A stretch of 64,000 bases of DNA from Stackebrandtia albiflava (GTDB lineage Bacteria > Actinomycetota > Actinomycetes > Mycobacteriales > Micromonosporaceae), in contig NZ_VLLL01000006.1 in NCBI RefSeq assembly GCF_007994225.1, positions 1,240,001 to 1,304,000 on the forward strand, written 5' to 3'. Below, piece after piece: positions 24,982 to 36,048 of the stretch (positions are counted from its first letter, which is position 1; every line of letters begins with the position of its first letter). The notes beneath the pieces are model-generated. The model worked only from the letters and a program-made list of their open reading frames with translations. It was not told where the DNA came from and made no database searches. The translations under genes were made by a program, and so were the position numbers.

Positions 24982-26217
24982 ATGTCCGGCAATCCCGACC
25001 GCCCCTTGATGCTCGGTGGTCAGCCCATGTACGAGGTCGTGCGGGCGCAGGCCCGTCGGCTCGCGCATCACCTGACCGACATCATCGCGTCGCAGGTCGA
25101 GACGTACCGCCGGATGCCGCAACTGGACCTGCACCGCGACATCGTGGCCATAGTGGAGCAGAACCTGTTGCACCTGGCGGACATGTTCGAGCGGCGCCGG
25201 GCGCCGACCGCCACCGAGATGGAGTCGCTGAGTCAGGCCGCCGGGCGGGGCGCCAGGGACGAGGTGCCGTTGGAGGACATCCTCGCGGCGTACCACCTGG
25301 GCGGGAAGCAGGCGATCAGCATCCTGTTCGCCGACTGCGACCCGGAGGACTACGGCGACGTCGTCGCCGCCTACAACCTGCTGCTGGACTACAACCAGAT
25401 CGTGTCGGCCGTGGTGTGCAACGGGTACAGCGCGGTCAGGGAGTCGATGCGCAGCCAGGAGCAGGACGCCCGGCACTCGGTGGTGACGGCGTTGTTGAAC
25501 GGTCAGCGCCCGGCCGACCCGGCGATGCTGGCGGGGGTGCGGCTCGCCGACCGGTACCTGGTGATGTCGACGGCGGTCGGCAGGCATCCCGACGAGGGCG
25601 CCGACAACTCCTACGGCGTGCACGCCGGGCGCAGCAAACTCGACCGGATCCGGGTGGCCCTGGACGGGTACGGCCCCGAGCCGGTGCTCACGGTGTTGGA
25701 CACCGCGGGCGGCCTGTTGCTGGTCCCGGCCGCCGACCCGGAGCGGGACGAGTCCTCCACGGCGCAGTTGGTGTCGGAGTTGACGGCGGCGGCGGGGGCG
25801 GGGATCTGGGCGGTGGTGGAGCCCGCCGACTCGATCGGGCAGATCGCCGGCGCGGCGCGGCTGACGCAGGAGGTGTTGGCGGTGGTCCAGTCGTTCGGGC
25901 ACGGCCCGGGCGTGTACCGGTTGTCGGACGTGTTGTTGGAGTACCAGTTGACGCGGCCGTCGAAGGCGTTGGACGAGTTGGCGAGGCTGCTGGATCCGTT
26001 GGAGGACAACCCGGATCTGTTGCAGACGTTGCGGGTGTACATCGACTGCAGCCTGGACCGGCGTGCCGCGGCGGCGCGGCTCCACGTCCATCCGAACACC
26101 GTGGACTACCGGTTGCGGCGGGCGGTGCAGTTGACGGGGCTGGATCCGATGGTCCCCGGTCAGTTGCAGCGGATCGGCGCGGCGTTGACCGCGCGGCGGG
26201 CGCAGACGACCGGTTGA
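24982..26217 (+). CDS. PucR-family (CdaR-like) transcriptional regulator
   Basis: 411 aa. An N-terminal helical RsbRD-like region (RLAHHLTDIIASQVETYRRM...EDILAAYHLGGKQA) is followed by a GGDEF-related middle region and a C-terminal PucR helix-turn-helix: LRVYIDCSLDRRAAAARLHV, then HPNTVDYRLRRAVQLTGLD. ATG 24982 has GGAGG 6 nt upstream, so the in-frame ATG at 24883 is rejected. It probably controls nearby or unlinked metabolic genes; no target is evident. Confidence 0.88.
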   Translation: MSGNPDRPLMLGGQPMYEVVRAQARRLAHHLTDIIASQVETYRRMPQLDLHRDIVAIVEQNLLHLADMFERRRAPTATEMESLSQAAGRGARDEVPLEDILAAYHLGGKQAISILFADCDPEDYGDVVAAYNLLLDYNQIVSAVVCNGYSAVRESMRSQEQDARHSVVTALLNGQRPADPAMLAGVRLADRYLVMSTAVGRHPDEGADNSYGVHAGRSKLDRIRVALDGYGPEPVLTVLDTAGGLLLVPAADPERDESSTAQLVSELTAAAGAGIWAVVEPADSIGQIAGAARLTQEVLAVVQSFGHGPGVYRLSDVLLEYQLTRPSKALDELARLLDPLEDNPDLLQTLRVYIDCSLDRRAAAARLHVHPNTVDYRLRRAVQLTGLDPMVPGQLQRIGAALTARRAQTTG

Positions 26218-26553
26218 GCCGGTACGGTGCCGCGCCCCGGCGGCACCCGGCGACCGGTCGTGCGCGTCCGTCTCCGGTACATGATGGCCGGTGGCGTGTG
26301 AGAATGCTTGAGCGCGTGGATTTCCGTGGGATACCGCATGATCGATGGTGGAAAATGTGTGAATGCACGTGCATTTGCACCGGGCGCCCCGGCGGGTGAA
26401 GATCCAACCGGGGGCCTTACCCTGCAAAGGGGAGCGACGACGCTTCCGTCGCCGGATCCGTTCGGCGACACGGGAAGGACCCACCGGCGGCTACCGATGG
26501 GTCCTCGAAGGAGACCCCCCGTACAGATTCCAGTCGACAGAAAGGTCTCGCAC
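26218..26553 (+). promoter_or_regulatory. Structured leader region before a 44-aa peptide
   Basis: This 336-bp stretch is less GC-rich at its start. It holds a perfect 12-bp palindrome ATGCACGTGCAT (26363-26374), hairpins GCGACG/CGTCGC (26434-26452) and GGACCCA/TGGGTCC (26477-26504), and a purine-rich GAAGGAGA just after. It could be an operator plus structured 5' UTR. I could not match it to a known riboswitch. Confidence 0.4.
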
Positions 26554-26688
26554 GTGACGATACAAGGCCACGACGGCCACCGGCCGCACCGCCGTCTACT
26601 TCGGGTACTGTCACATCCCGCGTGGGGCGGCATCGCCGCGCTCGCCGCGGTGATCGCCGCCATGGCGCGGGTCATCGCGATCGGCTGA
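26554..26688 (+). CDS. 44-aa single-TM cationic peptide
   Basis: GTG start with AGAAAGG 7 nt upstream. The N-terminus is His/Arg-rich (HDGHRPHRRLLRVLSH); the C-terminal 20 residues are hydrophobic (GIAALAAVIAAMARVIAIG). It is probably a small membrane protein or the toxin-like part of an unknown unit. The long structured leader argues for regulated expression, but coding status rests only on the start context and composition. Confidence 0.4.
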   Translation: MTIQGHDGHRPHRRLLRVLSHPAWGGIAALAAVIAAMARVIAIG

Positions 26689-26726
26689 CCGTGGGTGCCG
26701 TCCCCGGTCGCGGCGACGGCACCGTC

Positions 26727-27089
26727 TCAATGCCCCGTGGTGATGGGGACGTACTCACCGCAGAAGCGGCACACGCTGCCCCGATCGGGGCCGCCCTTGA
26801 CACACGGACAGTGGACCCGGTGCCGGTGCGCGAAGTCCACCAGGTGGTTCAGTTCGCGCCACCGCGCGTCGATCGACGCCGCCATGGCCTCTGACAGGAG
26901 ATGGTCCGGATCGAGCACGTACTCGTCGTAGGTCCACTCGGCGGGAGCCGGGCAGCGGCCGAACAGCAACCGGTCGGTGCACACCGAACCACCGGGCCGC
27001 CGGGCCGGACCGATCACGACGTCCCGTTCGGTCCGGCCGCACCAGTCACAGGTCCCGACCACCCAGCCGTCCTGGTCGCGTACCGCCAT
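26727..27089 (-). CDS. Small zinc-ribbon-like protein
   Basis: 120 aa with two Cys clusters: CDWCGRTE near residue 15 and CPCVKG...CRFCGEY near the end, probably a split zinc site, separated by an acidic/His-rich helical part (SIDARWRELNHLVDFAHRHR). Family and function are unrecognised. The gene stands alone, with a promoter region shared with the ThrRS leader on the other strand. Confidence 0.6.
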   Translation of the reverse strand: MAVRDQDGWVVGTCDWCGRTERDVVIGPARRPGGSVCTDRLLFGRCPAPAEWTYDEYVLDPDHLLSEAMAASIDARWRELNHLVDFAHRHRVHCPCVKGGPDRGSVCRFCGEYVPITTGH

Positions 27090-27181
27090 GCCACCGTCTT
27101 TACCCGACGCTCACGGCGGTACACGCGCCGATGCCGATTCGTGACCGAGTCGTCGGCGAGTCGCCACCCCGGCTCGTGCGG

Positions 27182-27187
27182 TAGCAT
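27182..27187 (+). promoter_or_regulatory. -10 element before the threonine leader
   Basis: TAGCAT, 7 nt before GTG 27195. Transcription would start at or next to the leader ORF. The -35 is weak. Confidence 0.4.
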
Positions 27188-27194
27188 CGGCGAC

Positions 27195-27245
27195 GTGAAG
27201 CGTGCCGCCATGACGACGACGCCGGAGACCGTCCCGGCGCGCTGA
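27195..27245 (+). CDS. Threonine-rich leader peptide of the ThrRS gene
   Basis: Reads MKRAAMTTTPETVPAR from GTG 27195, or MTTTPETVPAR from ATG 27210. Four of the eleven codons from the ATG encode Thr (ACG ACG ACG, then ACC). It ends 14 nt before a perfect hairpin that precedes a threonyl-tRNA synthetase gene. This is the classic layout of ribosome-mediated attenuation, with shortage of Thr-tRNA as the inferred signal. Confidence 0.7.
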   Translation: MKRAAMTTTPETVPAR

Positions 27246-27259
27246 GCGATGTCTTGAAC

Positions 27260-27287
27260 AAGCCCCGGGGCGAGCGCCCCGGGGCTT
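27260..27287 (+). terminator. Attenuator hairpin between Thr leader and ThrRS
   Basis: A perfect 13-bp stem AAGCCCCGGGGCG/CGCCCCGGGGCTT. It lies 40 nt upstream of the ThrRS start and after the leader stop, so it can only affect ThrRS expression. No U-tract follows. Confidence 0.75.
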
Positions 27288-27326
27288 CGCCGTGTGGTCG
27301 CTCGTCCCCTTCCCGAAGGAGACACC

Positions 27327-28547
27327 ATGCGAGACCACCGCAGAATCGGACGCGAACTGGAGATGTTCGACACCGATCCGCTCATCGGCGCGGGACTGCC
27401 GTTCTGGCTGCCGGCGGGGGCGACCGTCCGGCATGCCCTGGAGGAGTACATCCGGTCGGTGGAGCGCGCGGCCGGATACCGGCACGTGTACTCGCCGGTG
27501 CTCGGCAAACGCGAGTTGTACGAGCTGTCCGGACACTGGTCGCACTACCGCGACGACATGTACCCGCCCATGGACGTCGGTGGGGAGCAGTTCGTGCTGC
27601 GGCCGAGCATCTGCCCACACCACGCCGTCATGTTCCGGTCCCGGGCACGCAGTTACCGGGAGCTGCCGCTGCGGATGGCCGAGCTGGGCGGCATGTACCG
27701 GGCGGAGCTGTCCGGTGTGCTCGGCGGCCTGACCCGGGTGCGGGCGATCCAGCTCAACGACGCGCACGTCTTCTGCGCCCTCGACCAGGTGCACGACGAG
27801 GTCGCCGCCGCGCTCGACCTGATCCGCGACGCCTACCACGCCATGGGTATCGCCCCGGCCAGGTACCGGTTGTCGTTGCCGGGGGAGGGCGGGAAGTACG
27901 TGGACGCGCCGGAGGCGTGGCGGCGTTCCGTCGACATGCTCACCGAGGTGTTGCGCGCCTCCGGCCTGCCCTACGACGCCGAACCCGGCGAGGCCGCCTT
28001 CTACGGACCGAAGATCGACGTGCAGGTCGCCGACGAGGGCGGCAGGGAGGCGACCCTGTCCACCGTGCAGATCGACTTCCACCAGCCCGAGCGGTTCGGG
28101 CTGCGGTACGTGGGGGCGGACGGGCGGCGGCACCGACCGGTCATGATCCATCGCAGCATCATCGGCAGCGTGGAGCGCGCGGTGGCGCAGCTCCTCGAAC
28201 GGCACGAGGGCGCGCTGCCCGCGTGGCTCGCCCCGGTGCAGGTGGTGGTGTTGCCGGTGTCCGACGCCGAGTGGGACGCCGCCGCCGCGTTCGCCGATCG
28301 GTGCGCGGCACTGGGACTGCGGGCCGAGATCGCGCCACCGGAGCACGGTGCGCTGGGTGCCCGGATCCGGGCCGCGCGGCTGGTCCCGTACCAGTGCGTC
28401 ATCGGGTCCAGGGAGGCCGACGCCGGCCTGGTGTCGGTGCGGTTGCGTGACGGGCGGCGACTGGATCCGATGCCGGCCGGGGAGCTGGCGGCCCGGTTCG
28501 CAGACCTGACCGGCGCGCACCGCCCCGAACTGTGGCCCGCCGACTGA
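27327..28547 (+). CDS. Truncated threonyl-tRNA synthetase (no TGS or editing domain)
   Basis: A 406-aa class II synthetase charging tRNA-Thr. It begins directly at the catalytic core; housekeeping bacterial ThrRS is about 640-680 aa, with N-terminal TGS and editing domains. The active-site zinc ligands are kept: Cys in LRPSICPHH (about residue 95), His in NDAHVFC (about 145) and His in MIHRSIIGSVER (about 274). YGPKIDVQV is the conserved motif region and an HGTP anticodon-binding domain ends the protein. ATG 27327 has GAAGGA 7 nt upstream. A Thr-rich leader and hairpin precede it. It is probably a second ThrRS, as found in resistance to ThrRS inhibitors or in stress. Confidence 0.9.
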   Translation: MRDHRRIGRELEMFDTDPLIGAGLPFWLPAGATVRHALEEYIRSVERAAGYRHVYSPVLGKRELYELSGHWSHYRDDMYPPMDVGGEQFVLRPSICPHHAVMFRSRARSYRELPLRMAELGGMYRAELSGVLGGLTRVRAIQLNDAHVFCALDQVHDEVAAALDLIRDAYHAMGIAPARYRLSLPGEGGKYVDAPEAWRRSVDMLTEVLRASGLPYDAEPGEAAFYGPKIDVQVADEGGREATLSTVQIDFHQPERFGLRYVGADGRRHRPVMIHRSIIGSVERAVAQLLERHEGALPAWLAPVQVVVLPVSDAEWDAAAAFADRCAALGLRAEIAPPEHGALGARIRAARLVPYQCVIGSREADAGLVSVRLRDGRRLDPMPAGELAARFADLTGAHRPELWPAD

Positions 28548-28642
28548 CCCGCCTCTCGGATCGGCGCGGTTGGCCGAAACGCCGAAAGGGGGGCGGTTAA
28601 CCTCCGGGAGCCGCCTCAGCCCCCACCCCCCAGGAGGTCAGC

Positions 28643-29401
28643 GTGATAACGGTGACACCCGTGCTCGCCCTCGTACTGGCGGCGCTGCTGCTGCTCGCCG
28701 TGACCGTGGCCGCCTGGTGCCGGTTGTCGCCGGACACCGGCGCGCCCAGGTGGCGGGAGATCCTGGTGGCGGGGCTGCGGGCGGCGGCCCAACTGGCGGC
28801 GGTCTCGCTGGTCGTCGTGTGGGCGTTGGAGTCGGCGGCGGTCCTGGCCGGTTTCCTGGTGGTGATGCTCGGTGTCGCGGTCCGCACCGCCGGCCGCCGT
28901 ATCACGCCGGGGCCGGGATGGTGGTTCACGGCCGTCCCGATCGGGGTCTCGGTGGTGCCGGTGGTGGCCGGGCTCCTCGCCACCGGCGTCGTGCCGTTGC
29001 GGGGTATCACCTTGATCCCGGTCACGGGAATCCTGATCGGAGGCGCGATGACGGCCACCACCCTGGCCGGTCGCCGGGCGCTCGACGAACTGGCGGCGCG
29101 GCACGGCGAGGTGGAGGCGGGGTTGGCGTTGGGCCTGCGGGACCGGGACGCCCGGCTCGCCGTGGCGCGGCCGTCCGCCTCCGACGCGCTGTTGCCCGGC
29201 CTCGACCAGACCCGCACCGTGGGGTTGGTGACGTTGCCGGGCGCGTTCGTCGGCATGTTGCTGGGCGGCGCGTCACCGGTGATGGCGGGTGCCGTGCAAC
29301 TGTTCGTGCTGGTGGCGTTGTCGGCGGTGCAGGTGGTCGCGGTCGCGGTGACGGTGGAACTGGTCGCGCGGGGCCGGTTGCGGCGGGAGCCGGTGGCGTG
29401 A
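28643..29401 (+). CDS. FetB/YbbM-type ABC transporter permease (UPF0014)
   Basis: A 252-aa integral membrane protein with about seven TM helices. VAGLRAAAQLAAVSLVV, ITLIPVTGILIGGAMTATTLAGRRALDEL and GLVTLPGAFVGMLLGGASPV are the family's conserved blocks. FetB works with the ATPase FetA in iron export in E. coli, but no ATPase gene adjoins here. GTG 28643 has AGGAGG 6 nt upstream; a GGTTAACCT box (about 28594) may be the -10. Confidence 0.85.
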   Translation: MITVTPVLALVLAALLLLAVTVAAWCRLSPDTGAPRWREILVAGLRAAAQLAAVSLVVVWALESAAVLAGFLVVMLGVAVRTAGRRITPGPGWWFTAVPIGVSVVPVVAGLLATGVVPLRGITLIPVTGILIGGAMTATTLAGRRALDELAARHGEVEAGLALGLRDRDARLAVARPSASDALLPGLDQTRTVGLVTLPGAFVGMLLGGASPVMAGAVQLFVLVALSAVQVVAVAVTVELVARGRLRREPVA

Positions 29402-29522
29402 CGGGCCGCCGGGACCACAACGACCACAAATGACAACACGACCACAACGGTGACGGGCGGCACACCGCGAGGCGACGATCGGGGCACCTGTCCGCAGTGT
29501 TCCGCAAGCACAAGGAGAAGTC

Positions 29523-30539
29523 GTGCCCATGCCCGCAATGACGCGGCGCCGTCTCGTCGCCCTGGTCGGCGCCACCGCGCTCACGGCCGTCACCACCGGC
29601 TGCAACGCCGAGGGTTCCGGTCCCGCCGCCGAATACCCCACCGGCACCATCCAGATCATGGCGCCCGCCGCCGCCGGAGGCGGCTGGGACCTCACGGCCC
29701 GTTCGATACAGCAGGGCCTCACCGAGGGCGGCCTGGTCGAGGAGACCGTCGAGGTCTACAACGTCGAGGGTGCCGCCGGCACGCTCGGACTGTCGCAACT
29801 GGTCACGAAGAACAGCGGTGACGCGCACCAGCTCATGGTCACCGGCCTGGTCATGATCGGCGGTGTCGTCACCAACGCCTCCGACGTGACCCTGGAGATG
29901 GTCACCCCGATCGCGACCCTCACCGCCGAGCAGGAGGTCGTGGTCGTCCCGGCGGACTCCGAGTACGAGACCCTCGAAGACCTGATGGCCGCCGCCGTGT
30001 CCGACCCGGAGTCGGTCACCTGGGGAGGCGGCTCGGCCGGCGGCACCGACCAGATCCTGGTCGGGATGCTGGCGCAGGCGGCCGGCGCCGATCCGCAGGC
30101 GATGAAGTACATCCCGTACTCGGGCGGTGGGGAGTCGAAGGCGGCGCTGCTGTCGGGCGACCTGACCGCCGCCGTGTCGGGTGTCAGCGAGTACAAGGAC
30201 CTGGTGGCCGCCGGTGACGTGCGGGTGCTGGCGACCTCGGGCGCCGAGGGCGTCGACGCGGGCGAGGGGAAGCCGTCGCCGACCATCATGGAGGCCGGTT
30301 TCGACGTCGAGTTGATGAACTGGCGTGGCATCGTGGCGCCGCCGGGCCTGTCGGACGCCGACCGGGACGCCGTGATCGCGCTCATCGACGAACTGCACGC
30401 CTCCGACGAGTGGCAGCGGATCCTGGAACAGCAGGGCTGGGACGACTTCTACAAGAGCGGCGACGACGCCGCCGCGTACTTCGCGTCGGAGAACGAACGC
30501 ATCACCGAGGTGTTGCGGGAGATCGGGTTGGCGGCGTAG
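29523..30539 (+). CDS. tctC: Tripartite tricarboxylate transporter solute-binding lipoprotein
   Basis: A 338-aa exported protein with an Arg-rich signal peptide and lipobox (VTTGC), so membrane-anchored on the outer face. The mature part has the Bug/TctC fold: [50 protein letters not shown] and [14 protein letters not shown]. It captures a carboxylate, citrate-like or other, for the TctB-TctA permease encoded directly after; its stop abuts the tctB start. Confidence 0.93.
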
Positions 30540-31082
30540 GTGTCGGCCTCCGAATCACCCGCCCGGCCGGAGGCGCCGCGCGACGGCGCCCCGGCCCGGC
30601 ACCCGGTCGGGCCCCGCGTCTTCGCCGGGGTCCTGTTCGTGTCCGGCGGCGGCCTGTTCTGGTACGCCTTCACCGAATCCGGCGACGATCCGATCACACT
30701 GGACAGTCCGCACCTGGCGCCGCTGGTCGTCACGGGACTGTGGACGGTCCTGGCGGCGGTGTTGCTCGTGAAGTCGCTGGTGCGCCCCGACGAGGCGCCG
30801 CCCGCCGACCCCGAGACCGACGCCGGAGAGACCGACCCGGCCGACGTGCGGTGGCTGACGCCGGCGCTGCTGGCGGTGGCGTTGGTCGGTTACGTGCTGT
30901 TGTTGCCGACGGTGGGCTTCCTCATCACCACGACGGTGTTCTTCTTCGCGGCCGCGGTGATCCTCGGCAGCCGGAGATGGTGGCGGGACGGCGTCATCGC
31001 GGTGGTGCTGTCCACGGCGGTGTACTTCGCCTTCACCCGGCTGCTCGACATCTTCCTGCCGAGCGGGGTGCTGCCGATATGA
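30540..31082 (+). CDS. tctB: Tripartite tricarboxylate transporter small membrane subunit
   Basis: A 180-aa protein with four predicted TM segments separated by an acidic loop ([20 protein letters not shown]). [17 protein letters not shown] and [20 protein letters not shown] are typical TctB helices. GTG start immediately after the tctC stop; its own stop overlaps the tctA ATG (ATGA). Confidence 0.9.
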
Positions 31083-32620
31083 GCATCCTCGACGGGCTCC
31101 TGGACGGATTCGCGACCGTCCTGTCGCCGGAGAACCTGCTGTTCGCGGCAATCGGTGTCACCGTCGGCACCTTCGTGGGGGTGTTGCCCGGCATCGGGCC
31201 CGCCCTGACGATCGCGCTGCTGCTGCCGGTGACGTTCTCCATGGACAGCCCCACGGGCGCGTTCATCATGTTCGCCGGCATCTACTACGGCGCGATGTAC
31301 GGCGGTTCCACGACCTCGATCCTGTTGAACACGCCCGGCGAGTCGGCGTCGGTGGCCACCGCCATCGAGGGCCATCAGATGGCGTTGCGGGGGCGGGCCA
31401 AGACCGCCCTGGCGACCTCGGCGATCGGTTCGTTCGTCGCCGGGACTCTGTCCACTCTGGCGTTGACGTTGTTCGCGGTGCCGTTGGCGAGCCTGGCGGT
31501 GAACTTCCAGGCGTCGGACTACTTCGCGCTGGCGGTGCTGGCGATGCTGTCGGTCACCGCGCTGGTGGGCCGGTCACTCCTTCGGGGGCTGTTGTCGCTG
31601 GCGGTGGGCCTGTTCATCGGCCTTGTCGGCCTCGACGAGCTGACCGGCCAGGCCCGCTTCACCTTCGGCACACTGGAACTGTTCGAGGGCATCGGCGTGA
31701 CCCTGGTGATCGTGGGCCTGTTCGCGGTGGGGGAGACCCTGCACGTCGCGGGCCGGCTGCGTCACCTCCCCGACCACATCGCGCCCCTGGACCCGGGTGG
31801 CCGCCGCGTCGGCTGGATGTCCCGGGCGGACCTGTCGAGGTCGTGGCGGCCGTGGCTGCGGGGTACGGCCGTGGGCTTCCCGTTCGGCGCGTTGCCCGCC
31901 GGCGGTGCCGACATCCCGACGTTCCTGTCGTACATGTGGGAGAAGCGGCTGTCGAAGCACCGCAAGGAGTTCGGCAAGGGCGCAGTGGAGGGCGTCGCCG
32001 GGCCGGAGGCGGCCAACAACGCCGCGTTCTCCGGCGTGCTGATCCCGTTGCTGACGCTGGGAATCCCGACGTCGGCGACGGCGGCGGTCATGCTGGCGTC
32101 GTTCCAGGTGTTCAACGTGCAGCCGGGACCGCAGTTGTTCGAGAAGTCGTCGGCCCTGGTGTGGGCGCTGATCGCGTCGCTGTACGTCGGCAACGTCATG
32201 CTGCTGCTGTTGAACCTGCCGCTGATCCGGTTGTGGGTGCAGGTGTTGAAGATCCCGCGGCCGCCGTTGTACGCGGGGATCCTGGTGTTCGCGACGATCG
32301 GCGTGTACGCGGTGTCGGGCAGCGTGTTCCAGGTGCTGCTGGCGTACGGCGTCGGCGTGCTGGGCCTGTTCATGCGGATGTACCGGTTCCCGATCGCGCC
32401 GGTGATCCTGGGCGCCATCCTCGGCCCGATGATGGAGATCCAGTTCCGGCGTGCCCTGTTGATCTCGAACAACGACCTGTCGGTGTTCGTGACGCGGCCT
32501 CTGACGGTCACGTTGTTGGCCCTGGCGGTGGTGGCGGTGGTACTGCCGTTCCTGCCGAAGTGGATCGCCCGGCTGCGGGGTCGCTCCCGGGACCGGCTCG
32601 CCTTCGGCGAGGACGACTGA
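31079..32620 (+). CDS. tctA: Tripartite tricarboxylate transporter large permease subunit
   Basis: 513 aa, about 12 TM helices. Conserved blocks are [63 protein letters not shown] and [15 protein letters not shown]. It is the Na+- or H+-driven translocation channel of the system. Complete TctC-TctB-TctA genes in order imply a functional uptake system. A palindromic repeat begins at the stop codon, between it and the convergent CitB-type regulator. Confidence 0.95.
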
Positions 32621-32729
32621 CCCGCCTTGGGTGGCCTGAGGCCCGCCTTGGGTGGTCTGAGGCCCGGAGAAAACCGGACATCTCGGCATATTCGAGGCAT
32701 GTCGATGGGCCTGCGCCCACCCAAGGCGG
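32621..32729 (+). repeat. Palindromic repeat element, copy A
   Basis: Two 21-bp direct repeats (32621-32641, 32642-32662; CCCGCCTTGGGTGG plus CTGAGG) are followed by a conserved core with CGGACAT...ATTCGAGGCATGTCGATGG and a single inverted arm (32707-32729). It lies between convergent genes, immediately after tctA. See copies B (44561) and C (63706). Confidence 0.9.
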
Positions 32730-32743
32730 AAAGTAAGGAGGCG

Positions 32744-33412
32744 TCAGGGCTTCCAGCGGTACAGGCGCTCCGGGCGCCCGGTGGTGCCGTACCGGGGCCG
32801 TACGGTGGCGCGGCCCGCCGAGACGAAGTACTCCAGGTACCGGCGGGCCGCCACCCGTGACAGGCCCGCGGCGGCGGCGCACTCGCTGGCGGACATGGTG
32901 TCGGCGGCGGCCTTCAGGGCCGCCGCCACCAGGTCCGCCGTGTCGCGGGCCAGTCCCTTGGGGAGTGTGCCGTCGTGCGACCGCATCAACGTGAACAACG
33001 AGTCCACCGCCGACTGGTCGACCTGGGCGGCGTCGGCCAGCCCGCGCCGGGCGGTCGCGTACTGTTCCAGCCGCCGCGACAACGCGTCGAAGGTGAACGG
33101 TTTGATCAGGTAGTGCACGACACCGCCGCGCATGGCGTCGCGCACGGTGTCGACGTCGCGGGCGGCGGTCACCACGAGCACGTCGGTCGACAGCGACCGT
33201 TCCCGCAGCCGCCGCAGCACCTCCAGCCCCGTCATGTCCGGCAGGTAGACGTCCAGCAGCACCAGGTCGGGGCGCAGCTCCTCGGCCGCCCGCAGCGCCT
33301 CCGTACCGGTGTGGGCCACACCCACGACGGTGAAACCGTCGACCCGTTCGGTGAAGCCGCGGTGCACCCGGGCGACCATGAAGTCGTCGTCGACCACGAG
33401 GACCCGGATCAC
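32744..33412 (-). CDS. CitB/DcuR-type response regulator
   Basis: 222 aa. The receiver domain has acidic pocket VVDDD, phospho-acceptor LLDVYLPDMTG, Thr in VVTAA and Lys in LIKPF. The linker and a C-terminal winged/HTH domain (MSASECAAAAGLSRVAARRYLEYFV) are of the CitB class. The GTG start at 33412 overlaps the kinase stop and has GGGAGG upstream. It probably activates the convergent tctCBA operon in response to its substrate. Confidence 0.92.
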   Translation of the reverse strand: MIRVLVVDDDFMVARVHRGFTERVDGFTVVGVAHTGTEALRAAEELRPDLVLLDVYLPDMTGLEVLRRLRERSLSTDVLVVTAARDVDTVRDAMRGGVVHYLIKPFTFDALSRRLEQYATARRGLADAAQVDQSAVDSLFTLMRSHDGTLPKGLARDTADLVAAALKAAADTMSASECAAAAGLSRVAARRYLEYFVSAGRATVRPRYGTTGRPERLYRWKP

Positions 33413-34998
33413 GGCGCCTCCCTTCGCGGCATGGGGATCCACAACGCGAAACCGGCGTCGGAGACCGAGACTCCGCCGCCCCGCCGGGAGCAGATCAGGC
33501 CGACCAGGGCCAGCCCGAGCCCGAGGTGGCCGCCCTGCCGGTCCTTGGTGGTCCAGCCCTGCCGGAACACCTCGTCGGCCAGTTCGGCCGGTACGCCGTC
33601 GCCGGAGTCGGAGACCCGTGCCCGGAGCCGGTCGTCGTCGGCGGTGACGGTCACCGCGACCCAGCCTCCGGCGTCGACGGCGTCCAACGCGTTGTCGATC
33701 AGGTTGCCGAGGATGGTACCGAGGTCGGCCGCCAGCTCGTCGTCGAGCGCCGTCAGGTCGCTGTCGTCGGTGACGCGGAGCCGGACGTGCTGTTCGGCGG
33801 CGACACTGGCCTTGGCGATGAGCAGCGCCGCGACGGCGGGGTCGCGGATCAACCGGGACACGTCGCGGCTGAACTCCTCGTGGACCTGGTTGGTGCGGGT
33901 GATGTAGCGGATCGCCTCGTCGTGTTCGCCCAGTTCCAGCAGACCGGCGATGGTGTGCATCCGGTTGGCGAACTCGTGGGCCTGGGCGCGCAGTGTGTCG
34001 GTGGTGTGGCGGCTGATGTCCAGTTCGCGTTGCAGGGCGACGAGTTCGGTGCGGTCGCGCAACGTGGTGACGGCGCCGACCTCCCGGTCGCGCACCAGTA
34101 CGGGCCGCCGGTTCAGCACCACGATCCGGTCGCCGGACAGGACGACGCGGTCGGTGCCGGTGACCTTTCCGGTGAGCACGTCGCGCAGGTGGGGGTCCAT
34201 GGACTGACTGTGCAGCGACCGTCCTATCTGGTCTCCGGTGAGTCCGAGCAGCCGCAGCGCCTCCTCGTTGGCGAGGGTGACCCGGTCGGCGGAGTCGGTG
34301 CCGAACACGCCCTCCTTGATGCCGTGCAGCATCGCCTCACGGTGCTCCACGAGACCGGTGATCTCCGGCGGCTCAAGGCCCAGTGTCTGCCGCTTGACGC
34401 GGCGGGCCAGCAGCAGGGAGCCCGCCACGCCCAGTGCCAGGCCCAACGCCAGGTAGAGCATGAGGTCGGAACCGGCCGAGACCAGCCGTTCCACCAGCGT
34501 GGGGTAGCCGACCCCGACGACGACCAGGCCGAGGAGGCGCCCGTCCTGGTGGTGAAGGACCGGCACGTGCGCCACCAGGTGCCGGCCGCCCTCGTCGACC
34601 ACTCCGATCCACGACTTGCCGGTCAGCCCGGTGGATTCGGCGAGCGCGGCGGGACGGCCGGAGTCCGGTCCGGTCATGAGGGTCCCGGCGGAGTCGGTGA
34701 TGAAGACGTACCCGGCGCCGGCGACGGCGCGGGCGCTCTCGGCCACCGACGACAGTGCCTCGGAACCGACCGGGCTGCTCAGGCCCATCCGCACGGTCGG
34801 GTTGATCGCCAGGTTCTCGCCGACCGACCGCAACCGGGCGCCCTCCTGGGCGCGGAAGTCCGCGTCGGATTCGGCGATCGACACCGCCGCCACCGCGATC
34901 ACGACGACCACGACGATGCATATCTGCAGTATCAGCAGTTGACCGGCCAATGACAGTCGCTGGCGCAAGGGTCCCCTCCCGTCCGGCTGGTGCGGCAC
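33409..34998 (-). CDS. CitA/DcuS-type sensor histidine kinase
   Basis: 529 aa. TM1 (about 20-40) and TM2 (about 175-200) bound an extracytoplasmic PAS-like sensor domain with GYVFITDSAGTLMTG and a loop LVAHVPVLHHQDGRLLG, as in citrate/C4-dicarboxylate sensors. A cytoplasmic PAS follows. The phospho-His is in RAQAHEFANRMHTIAGLLELG; the N-box is LGNLIDNALDAVD, and DSGDGVP and GGHLGLGLALV complete the ATPase site. Operon with the response regulator; divergent from a second tctC gene 84 bp away. Confidence 0.94.
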   Translation of the reverse strand: MPHQPDGRGPLRQRLSLAGQLLILQICIVVVVVIAVAAVSIAESDADFRAQEGARLRSVGENLAINPTVRMGLSSPVGSEALSSVAESARAVAGAGYVFITDSAGTLMTGPDSGRPAALAESTGLTGKSWIGVVDEGGRHLVAHVPVLHHQDGRLLGLVVVGVGYPTLVERLVSAGSDLMLYLALGLALGVAGSLLLARRVKRQTLGLEPPEITGLVEHREAMLHGIKEGVFGTDSADRVTLANEEALRLLGLTGDQIGRSLHSQSMDPHLRDVLTGKVTGTDRVVLSGDRIVVLNRRPVLVRDREVGAVTTLRDRTELVALQRELDISRHTTDTLRAQAHEFANRMHTIAGLLELGEHDEAIRYITRTNQVHEEFSRDVSRLIRDPAVAALLIAKASVAAEQHVRLRVTDDSDLTALDDELAADLGTILGNLIDNALDAVDAGGWVAVTVTADDDRLRARVSDSGDGVPAELADEVFRQGWTTKDRQGGHLGLGLALVGLICSRRGGGVSVSDAGFALWIPMPRREAP

Positions 34999-35082
34999 TC
35001 CGCCGAAGCAGACTACGCTGCTGACCAGCGGCGCAGTGGCCGCCGATATTCACGTGACTCGAAGTGAGGGGGTGGCGACCGG

Positions 35083-36048
35083 ATGCGCCGATCCCTACTC
35101 GTCGTGCTGGTGACCCTGCTGGGCCTGACCGCGTGCGCCGGTGGTGTCCGGCCGCCCGCCGACCTTCGCATCCTGGTCCCGAACCTGCCCGGCAGCGGCT
35201 ACGACGTCACCGCGAGGGTGGCGGCCGAGGCCGCCGGTGAGGCGGGGCTCTACCCGGACCTGGAGGTGTTCAACCTGCCCGGCGGCGGCGGCAACGTCGG
35301 CCTGCAACGGATGGGCCTGGAGGCCGGTAATCCGGGCCTGCTCATGTTGATGGGCCTGGGCGTGTTGGGCGGCCAGCACTCCGCGGACTCCCCGACCACC
35401 CTGGCCGACACCACGCCGGTCGCCCGGCTGCTGTCGGAGCCGGGGATCATCGTGGTGCGCAGGGAGGCGCCGTACCGCAGCATGTCGGCGCTGGTGGAGG
35501 CGTGGCGCGACTCCCCGTCGGCCACGTCCGTCGGCGGTGGCTCCGCGGTCGGCGGACCGGATCACGTCGCGACGATGCTCATCGCGCAGGAGATCGGCAT
35601 CGCGCCGCCCGAGGTGGACTACCGGCAGTACGACGGCGGCGGCGACCTGTTGACGGCGGTGCTGCGCGGCGAGGTCGCCTTCGGTGTCTCCGGGATCAGC
35701 GAGTATCCGCCGCAGGTGTGGTCGGGGCAGTTGCGGGTGCTGGCGGTGAGCGGCGCCGAGCCGACGCCCGGTGTCGACGCCCCGACGCTTCGGGAGTGCG
35801 GCATCGACGTGGTGTTCACGAACTGGCGGGGGATCGTCGCGCCACCCGGGTTGACCGCCGCCGAGACCGAGGCGTTGCGGGGCCTGGTCGAGGCGCTGCG
35901 TGACAGTGCGCCGTGGCGGAACGCGTTGGAACGATACGGCTGGACCGACGCCTACCTGCCCGGCGACGAGTTCGGTGACTTCATCGCCGCCGAGACCGAC
36001 CGGCTCGACGACCTGTTGACGGAACTGGACCTCGCGACGGTCCCGTGA
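35083..36048 (+). CDS. Second TctC-type solute-binding lipoprotein, next to the sensor kinase
   Basis: A 321-aa lipoprotein (lipobox LTAC). PNLPGSGYDVTARVAAEAAG, VFNLPGGGGNVGLQRM, SVGGGSAVGGPDHVATML and [14 protein letters not shown] are TctC/Bug motifs. It has no permease of its own and starts 84 bp from the divergent CitA-type kinase. In Bordetella, a TctC homologue (BctC) is known to signal to its sensor kinase, so a role as periplasmic co-receptor is a reasonable inference; extra substrate capture for TctAB is the alternative. Confidence 0.88.
   Translation: MRRSLLVVLVTLLGLTACAGGVRPPADLRILVPNLPGSGYDVTARVAAEAAGEAGLYPDLEVFNLPGGGGNVGLQRMGLEAGNPGLLMLMGLGVLGGQHSADSPTTLADTTPVARLLSEPGIIVVRREAPYRSMSALVEAWRDSPSATSVGGGSAVGGPDHVATMLIAQEIGIAPPEVDYRQYDGGGDLLTAVLRGEVAFGVSGISEYPPQVWSGQLRVLAVSGAEPTPGVDAPTLRECGIDVVFTNWRGIVAPPGLTAAETEALRGLVEALRDSAPWRNALERYGWTDAYLPGDEFGDFIAAETDRLDDLLTELDLATVP

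Follow-up and report, generated by a model that had tools for sequence, protein, structure and literature searches.

Attenuators ahead of aminoacyl-tRNA synthetase genes have been described in Streptomyces, where leuS and trpS are each preceded by a leader peptide and a terminator (PMC1262725); in its accessible part, that report finds no conserved RNA structure 5' of actinobacterial threonine operons and makes no mention of codon exclusion. Closer to the present case is thrL of Streptomyces lividans TK24, which precedes thrS and was found by RNA-seq to be leaderless (PMC8079986). Here we describe a locus of this kind in Stackebrandtia albiflava (genome size 5.55 Mb), situated in a 64,000-nucleotide (nt) stretch of contig NZ_VLLL01000006.1, hereafter the window, in which a small open reading frame (ORF) rich in threonine (Thr) codons, VKRAAMTTTPETVPAR*, and a hairpin lie upstream of a gene for a short threonyl-tRNA synthetase (ThrRS). 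The leaders of the two organisms share the pattern M(K/Q)R..TTP..VPAR* (asterisks in peptides denoting stops), and in S. lividans too the Thr leader, MKRVRPFLETTPGFVPAR*, is followed by a hairpin without a U-rich stretch and by a Thr-tRNA ligase gene. As thrL was reported ahead of thrS, the attenuator as such is already in print. The S. lividans case is a single report of a leader with two Thr, and its accessible text mentions no comparative analysis, editing-less enzyme, codon partition or second lock (PMC8079986). Judging by locus-tag order and leader pattern, SLIV_19410 probably encodes the short enzyme.

The S. albiflava element is very probably a threonine attenuator for an editing-less ThrRS gene; it is of a known kind and is conserved in many actinobacteria. 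We consider it likely that it is ribosome-mediated and controls the synthetase by sensing the charging of the Thr-tRNA that reads ACG. What is new is the codon partition: ACG is used in the leader but avoided in the gene under its control. In the literature searched, comprising titles, the beginnings of abstracts and few subscription papers, exclusion of a leader codon from the synthetase gene under its control was not described.

Conservation of the leader and hairpin ahead of short ThrRS genes

By family score, zinc ligands and motif residues, the product of the window gene is classed as a ThrRS: it scores 441.9 bits against TIGR00418 (cut-off 383.65), and 137/137 short enzymes retain the zinc ligands Cys334, His385 and His511 together with Arg363, Arg375 and Tyr462 (E. 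coli numbering). Pfam reports only a catalytic core and an anticodon domain and neither TGS nor SAD (editing), bearing out an earlier reading of the window made from the sequence alone (the sequence-only reading). That reading also called for a search for a full-length thrS; the genome does encode a further, full-length ThrRS with a SAD domain, so that the short gene is not its sole ThrRS, and no leader of this type was seen in the 300 nt upstream of the open frame of the full-length enzyme. Short and long enzymes are split by one branch with a support of 99 in a quick tree. A stress-induced, editing-impaired second ThrRS beside an accurate housekeeping enzyme able to edit in trans is likewise found in Anabaena (T2 and T1), but T2 is under the zinc repressor Zur and the accessible part of the report mentions no attenuator (PMC4787780).

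Comparison was based on 102 short-ThrRS loci, 22 of them from 61 genomes (S. albiflava and the window locus included) and the remainder the best 80 of 241 found in genome contigs. The leader is present at 98/102, the window's own among them. Of the four exceptions, two (L041, L083) are truncated at contig ends and two (L042, L067) are without a leader within 400 nt; at L042 the hairpin and the ThrRS gene are kept, yet no leader ORF was found ahead of them. At 80 loci, including the window, the leader encodes a peptide of the form M(K/Q)RA..TTTPESVPAR* (group A), and at 18 one of the form ..TTTPGxPG..* (group B). The Thr positions are ACG in 284/294 cases (89, 98 and 97 of 98 at positions one to three), and the codon after the Thr run is CCG in 98/98. 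A hairpin follows the leader in 98/98 loci, and in an alignment of 55 sequences 11 of the 13 pairs of the hairpin model had changed on both sides with 93% of cells paired. Conservation and hairpin covariation rule out a chance combination of ORF and hairpin. The sequence-only reading had staked itself on conservation of the Thr codons and the hairpin in relatives; both are conserved, and attempts to refute it at the level of sequence failed. What it had missed about the Thr-codon sensor, whose Thr run stands as it proposed, was the specificity for ACG and the avoidance of that codon by the controlled gene.

The start codon lies 6-8 nt 3' of a TANNNT box in 98/98 homologous leaders, a spacing that gives only partly independent support because the box was a criterion in choosing the starts. 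In the window, the GTG at 27195, 7 nt 3' of TAGCAT, is the most likely leader start rather than the ATG at 27210 that had been proposed, giving 16 codons; the leader itself and its four Thr codons are as first described. Transcription would be expected to start at ~27194-27195, and the transcript is predicted to be leaderless. At L046 the sequence beyond TTTP is read in a frame different from that of relatives; as the peptide tail changed while the RNA strands were kept, the peptide after TTTP seems unimportant. Retention of ACGACGACG for RNA pairing with a downstream CGTCGT was considered and rejected, as CGTCGT occurs in merely 20/98 loci. A quickly built tree of the enzymes places 17 rows of group B in two sets outside the group A rows and puts the window copy next to a Streptomyces copy (96*), away from the majority of copies of its family; leader and enzyme appear to have been transferred horizontally together. 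Twenty stretches 5' of housekeeping thrS, one of which (L183) holds little upstream DNA, yielded no leaderless ORF encoding TTT or TTP on either strand. The metL leader of S. lividans, ahead of metN, also contains TTTPG as do the group B Thr leaders, possibly by coincidence (PMC8079986).

A covariance model of leader and hairpin, built from 55 loci including that of the window, was used to scan 296 genomes of the class and gave matches at E<1e-6 in 46. In 44 of these the match lies within ~310 nt upstream of a short ThrRS and in one at a contig end (G291); the remaining one (G298) precedes a full-length ThrRS, the sole ThrRS found in that genome. Counter to the idea that the leader belongs to an alternative ThrRS, in one actinobacterial family the same leader stands before the only, full-length ThrRS. 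Conversely, a short ThrRS (E<=1e-106) was found in 48/296 genomes; those without a strong match are G348 and G209, at contig ends, G266, with a weaker upstream match (2.1e-5), and G257, which carries the leader in its sequence, MAHHQHLTTTPGTLTRRGCGVT*. Two candidates for other genes under the element were dismissed: a weak match in G188 (contig C121) coincides with the close of a coding frame, and a match in G129 (L173) has no such leader. In G454 (L286), G397 (L307) and G438 (L309) the leader stands ahead of a decayed or broken short-ThrRS remnant; the match in G385 (L308) runs into a contig end and that in G457 begins at base 2 of its contig.

Codon partition between leaders and synthetase genes

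The 137 distinct short ThrRS genes contain 1166 Thr codons, of which 1137 are ACC, 21 ACT, 7 ACG and 1 ACA. As many as 131 genes are free of ACG, compared with 9.3 expected at 35%, the proportion of ACG in 245 flanking frames; these were picked mechanically (longest of at least 150 codons, with a third-position GC content, GC3, of >0.85) and some may not be genes. Thr makes up 2.1% of codons in the short genes and 6.9% in the flanking frames. In the full-length ThrRS, ACG accounts for 71/332 Thr codons of the part aligned with the short enzyme in 20 genomes with a short copy, and for 48/301 in 20 genomes without one, with two ACG-free genes in each set; over whole frames, counts that include bases ahead of the start codon, the values are 166/630 and 122/616. 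The leaders of these genes were not checked one by one.

The contrast recurs on the full-length enzyme within a single family. Within the family to which G298 belongs (150 genomes), full-length ThrRS genes with no other ThrRS match in their genomes are also preceded by the element, and 20 stretches with weak matches plus 20 thought to be without, together with G298, yielded 40 usable ThrRS genes. The 21 genes with a leader have ACG at 9/465 Thr codons, 14 of them being ACG-free; the 19 without have 86/467 and none is ACG-free (2/261 vs 37/265 in the aligned part alone). This assignment includes three genes (L273, L278, L280) moved from the group without to the group with leaders, which were read by eye as TRTP, TSTP and ACG-ACA-ACG variants; before these three of 22 were moved the contrast was 7/398 vs 88/534. 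L297, chosen as lacking a leader, has one by pattern, and L286 has no ThrRS; the remaining genes without leader, here and in the set described below, were checked by pattern only. Mapped on the tree, the leader label shows six changes (5-6 in bootstraps), three or more of them forced by supported branches, and ACG content follows it; since the genes of the family are still related, p-values of the leader contrast overstate it.

A mirror image was found in leucyl-tRNA synthetase (LeuRS). Among 24 LeuRS genes of relatives (L243-L266), 18 have a short leucine (Leu) leader that uses CTC/CTT besides CTG, 15 recognised by pattern and three by eye, with codons counted from match start to stop. The genes with leader contain CTC 9 times and CTT 0 times in 1006 Leu codons; the six without contain 111 CTC (28%) and 4 CTT in 397. 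Three genes (L250, L259, L262) of nine initially taken to be without leader were moved after leaders with two Leu codons had been read, the earlier counts being CTC 8/839 vs 112/564. ACG makes up 302/1149 Thr codons of all LeuRS, and CTC 31% of CTN codons in the short ThrRS (37% in flanking frames). Each gene thus avoids only the codon of its own leader. The leuS attenuator therefore resembles the ThrRS system in showing the same partition.

These data suggest that the leader probably senses the ACG-reading Thr-tRNA, with the controlled gene insulated from ACG. The theory of selective charging has been applied to attenuation (PMC1183508); its Thr example, the thr operon of E. coli, has a leader that uses ACC, the opposite of the ACG leader here, and the accessible part of the paper says nothing of a controlled gene being stripped of its sensor codon. 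The partition, for which we infer the direction of selection, provides selective tRNA charging with a natural test replicated across the tree: among genes of one function in a single family, the codon is near-absent where the leader uses it and common where none was found. Elf et al. in 2003 reportedly made a related prediction for biosynthetic genes. In actinobacteria, the isoacceptors predicted to lose their charge first would be the readers of ACG and of CTC/CTT. The partition would also explain how a synthetase gene is expressed under the very shortage that induces it and would provide a means of recognising, from sequence, genes designed for translation during starvation.

Leader RNA structures and the proposed mechanism

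The hairpin downstream of the leader, hereafter T, begins 14 nt after the leader stop and is a perfect stem, as the sequence-only reading had it, although of 12 rather than 13 bp. A helix between the bases just after the start codon and those ahead of the stop, P1, has 83% of its cells paired in the alignment model, with changes mainly one-sided. In group A it is better than shuffled sequences in 47/80 loci at p<=0.1 and better than cross-pairing between loci in 2/80, a comparison that is uninformative there because P1 is nearly invariant; in group B its own pairing is -16.0 vs -13.9 kcal/mol for cross-pairing, with p<=0.1 in 5/18 loci against cross-pairing and in 8/18 against shuffles. Stalling was simulated by truncating the RNA before the 3' arm of the hairpin, parking a ribosome at a set position and folding the remainder. 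With the ribosome on the ACG codons, the 5' arm of the hairpin was paired upstream in 98/98 loci; with the ribosome at the stop codon this was the case in 6/96. The stall fold averages ~5 kcal/mol better than shuffles.

On this basis, a ribosome would begin translation at the very 5' end of the leaderless transcript. When charged tRNA is ample, it would reach the UGA and cover strand 2, so that the GC hairpin could form and transcription would stop and/or the Shine-Dalgarno (SD) sequence would stay closed. With the ACG-reading Thr-tRNA uncharged, it would stall on ACG ACG ACG and mask the upstream strands that would otherwise hold strand 2; strand 2, thus freed, would pair with the 5' arm of the hairpin (the 2:3 helix) and RNA polymerase would continue. 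The synthetase mRNA would remain translatable during such a stall because it has few Thr codons, encoded by ACC, and practically no ACG.

A number of observations weigh against this reading. Hairpin T has no U-tract in the window and in many relatives, and at equilibrium it prevails whichever state is simulated (mean pair probability 0.97-0.98), so equilibrium antitermination was rejected and antitermination would have to be kinetic. With no ribosome in place, upstream pairing of the 5' arm occurs in 69/98 loci (61/80 in group A, 8/18 in group B; at >=0.5), and the stall fold passes 5% against shuffles in only 62/98. Folding for an antiterminator, as the sequence-only reading had proposed, therefore gave a mixed outcome: upstream pairing of the 5' arm under stall, partial support from shuffles, and an equilibrium that favours the terminator. 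The 2:3 helix of group B shows no covariation beyond cross-pairing (-12.3 vs -12.2 kcal/mol; 9/18 better). Two loci, L042 and L067, lack the leader as noted above, the S. lividans leader was reported with only two Thr (PMC8079986), and homologues are not independent. As to the partition, ten further full-length genes have ACG at 11/148 Thr codons and six of the ten are ACG-free; of these six, G298 has a leader, none was found upstream in G014 and G029, and the other three were not examined. Over the open frame, G014 and G029 have ACG at 1/31 and 2/30 Thr codons with no leader detected.

Alternative explanations and further features of the locus

Control might be mainly translational, the leader ribosome deciding between T and a pairing of S2a, in the inner 5' arm and loop of T, with S2b, and thereby closing or freeing the SD, with termination playing a minor part. 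We regard this as rather unlikely, although the hairpin is without a U-tract in many loci and covariation hints at a second, translational lock. In 35 loci with non-GAGT loops, S2a:S2b complementarity is kept despite varying sequence (35 variants; own pairing -17.3 vs -14.3 kcal/mol for cross-pairing; p<=0.1 in 15/35 against cross-pairing and 22/35 against shuffles). Pairing of the SD with an anti-SD strand around S2b is above shuffles at p<=0.1 in 51/96 loci, but beats cross-pairing at that level in only 21/96 and in the window is not better than shuffles (p 0.64). Forcing S2a:S2b opened the SD further in 41/67 loci and made it less open in 8, while merely holding the 5' arm of the hairpin away opened it in 2/67 and closed it further in 10. 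S2a overlaps T as well as the 2:3 helix, so that either polarity of S2a:S2b is conceivable; in the model proposed here, blocking of the terminator would leave S2a free for S2b, which would free the SD. Attenuation and this switch may be joined in a wider rule, to which we give slightly less than an even chance: the leader would be written in the synonym whose tRNA is the first to become uncharged (ACG for Thr, CTC/CTT for Leu), the controlled gene would be cleared of precisely this codon, the rule would be gained or lost along with the leader, and the competition of S2a:S2b with SD:anti-SD would hand the antiterminated state over to open translation. Stalling that shuts most mRNAs would then selectively allow that of the controlled gene, and exclusion of the sensor codon may be general for actinobacterial synthetase attenuators.

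The remaining alternatives concern the enzyme and its codons. The sequence-only reading linked the system to ThrRS inhibitors; on such a view the short ThrRS would be insensitive to borrelidin- or obafluorin-like compounds and induced when they empty the Thr-tRNA pool. We find this improbable. A full-length ThrRS does occur as well in 22/22 short-gene genomes among the 61, and in G005, whose short copy is in two pieces, and ObaO, the obafluorin self-resistance ThrRS, is likewise a second copy (PMC11252418); ObaO, however, has serine in place of Gly463, which is kept in 137/137 short enzymes, so that resistance of the ObaO type was rejected. The short enzymes have Ser332 (126/137), Leu381 (137/137) and Ser513 (130/137) where ten long enzymes have Met, Gln or Met, and Ala, respectively, and these positions correspond to borrelidin contacts altered in resistant archaeal enzymes (PMC4389257), in a numbering of our own inferred from two residue pairs in that paper. 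The three differences are a lead, not a result, and the inhibitor proposal is unsupported: the same leader governs a sole, full-length ThrRS in one family, and the ORFs nearby showed no recognisable antibiotic cluster, though none was searched for. The closest solved ThrRS, 1nyq, presumably that of Staphylococcus aureus, likewise has Leu at 381. ThrRS genes could instead be depleted of ACG through codon optimisation in general or through thrift in amino acids, independently of the leader; full-length ThrRS are below the flanking ORFs (16-21% vs 35% ACG), Thr is rarer in ThrRS generally, and G014 and G029 are very ACG-poor with no detected leader. Such an origin seems quite improbable to us, as other codon families are near normal (short genes vs flanking frames: GCG 0.40 vs 0.41, CCG 0.61 vs 0.58, TCG 0.37 vs 0.48, GTG 0.46 vs 0.45), within one family the ACG content of full-length ThrRS genes goes with the presence or absence of a leader, and ThrRS and LeuRS show a double dissociation. 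Very improbable, finally, is a short enzyme that charges only some Thr isoacceptors and not the ACG reader, such that the leader reports on the housekeeping ThrRS and the gene avoids an unserved codon. The anticodon domain of the window enzyme does score low (34.7 bits vs 60.5 and 76.6 in two full-length enzymes) and positions 575 and 589 diverge, but residues 583, 600 and 609 are kept in 152, 158 and 158 of 160, and sole full-length ThrRS with a leader avoid ACG too, yet must charge all isoacceptors.

Sensing by the leader ribosome remains the reading we favour, and the features on which it draws in the window are compiled in Table 1.

Table 1. Features of the leader region and the short ThrRS gene, in positions of the window
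Feature	Position	Strand	Remarks
-10 promoter box TAGCAT	27182-27187	+	from sequence; 6-8 nt spacing in homologues
Leader ORF VKRAAMTTTPETVPAR*	27195-27245	+	GTG start, TGA stop; 16 codons, 4 Thr
P1 helix, 5' strand	27199-27206	+	just after start codon; pairs with 27236-27243
Sensor codons ACG ACG ACG	27213-27221	+	within leader ORF
Strand 2	27231-27242	+	alternative partner: terminator 5' arm (putative antiterminator)
P1 helix, 3' strand	27236-27243	+	overlaps strand 2
Terminator-like hairpin T	27260-27287	+	12 bp (27260-27271 with 27276-27287), GAGC loop
S2a	27267-27276	+	inner 5' arm and loop of T; complementary to S2b
S2b	27299-27308	+	pairs with S2a; overlaps or adjoins the SD-sequestering strand
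SD of ThrRS gene, AAGGAG	27316-27321	+	inside predicted hairpin 27304-27323 (window fold)
Short ThrRS gene	27327-28547	+	ATG start; 406 amino acids; 7 Thr codons, all ACC

An Rfam scan of 25500-29500, up to an E value of 1 and with the T-box covariance model included, matched neither a T-box nor any other element apart from a sub-threshold hit to the small RNA ASdes (26763-26827, minus strand, 27.2 bits with a gathering threshold of 40), which lies inside a small ORF and is probably due to chance. Two neighbouring genes of the window had no homologue at the other loci of the database, most flanks of which are <=1.5 kb. The ORFs at 29523-36048 resemble what we take to be tripartite tricarboxylate transporter genes and a two-component system.

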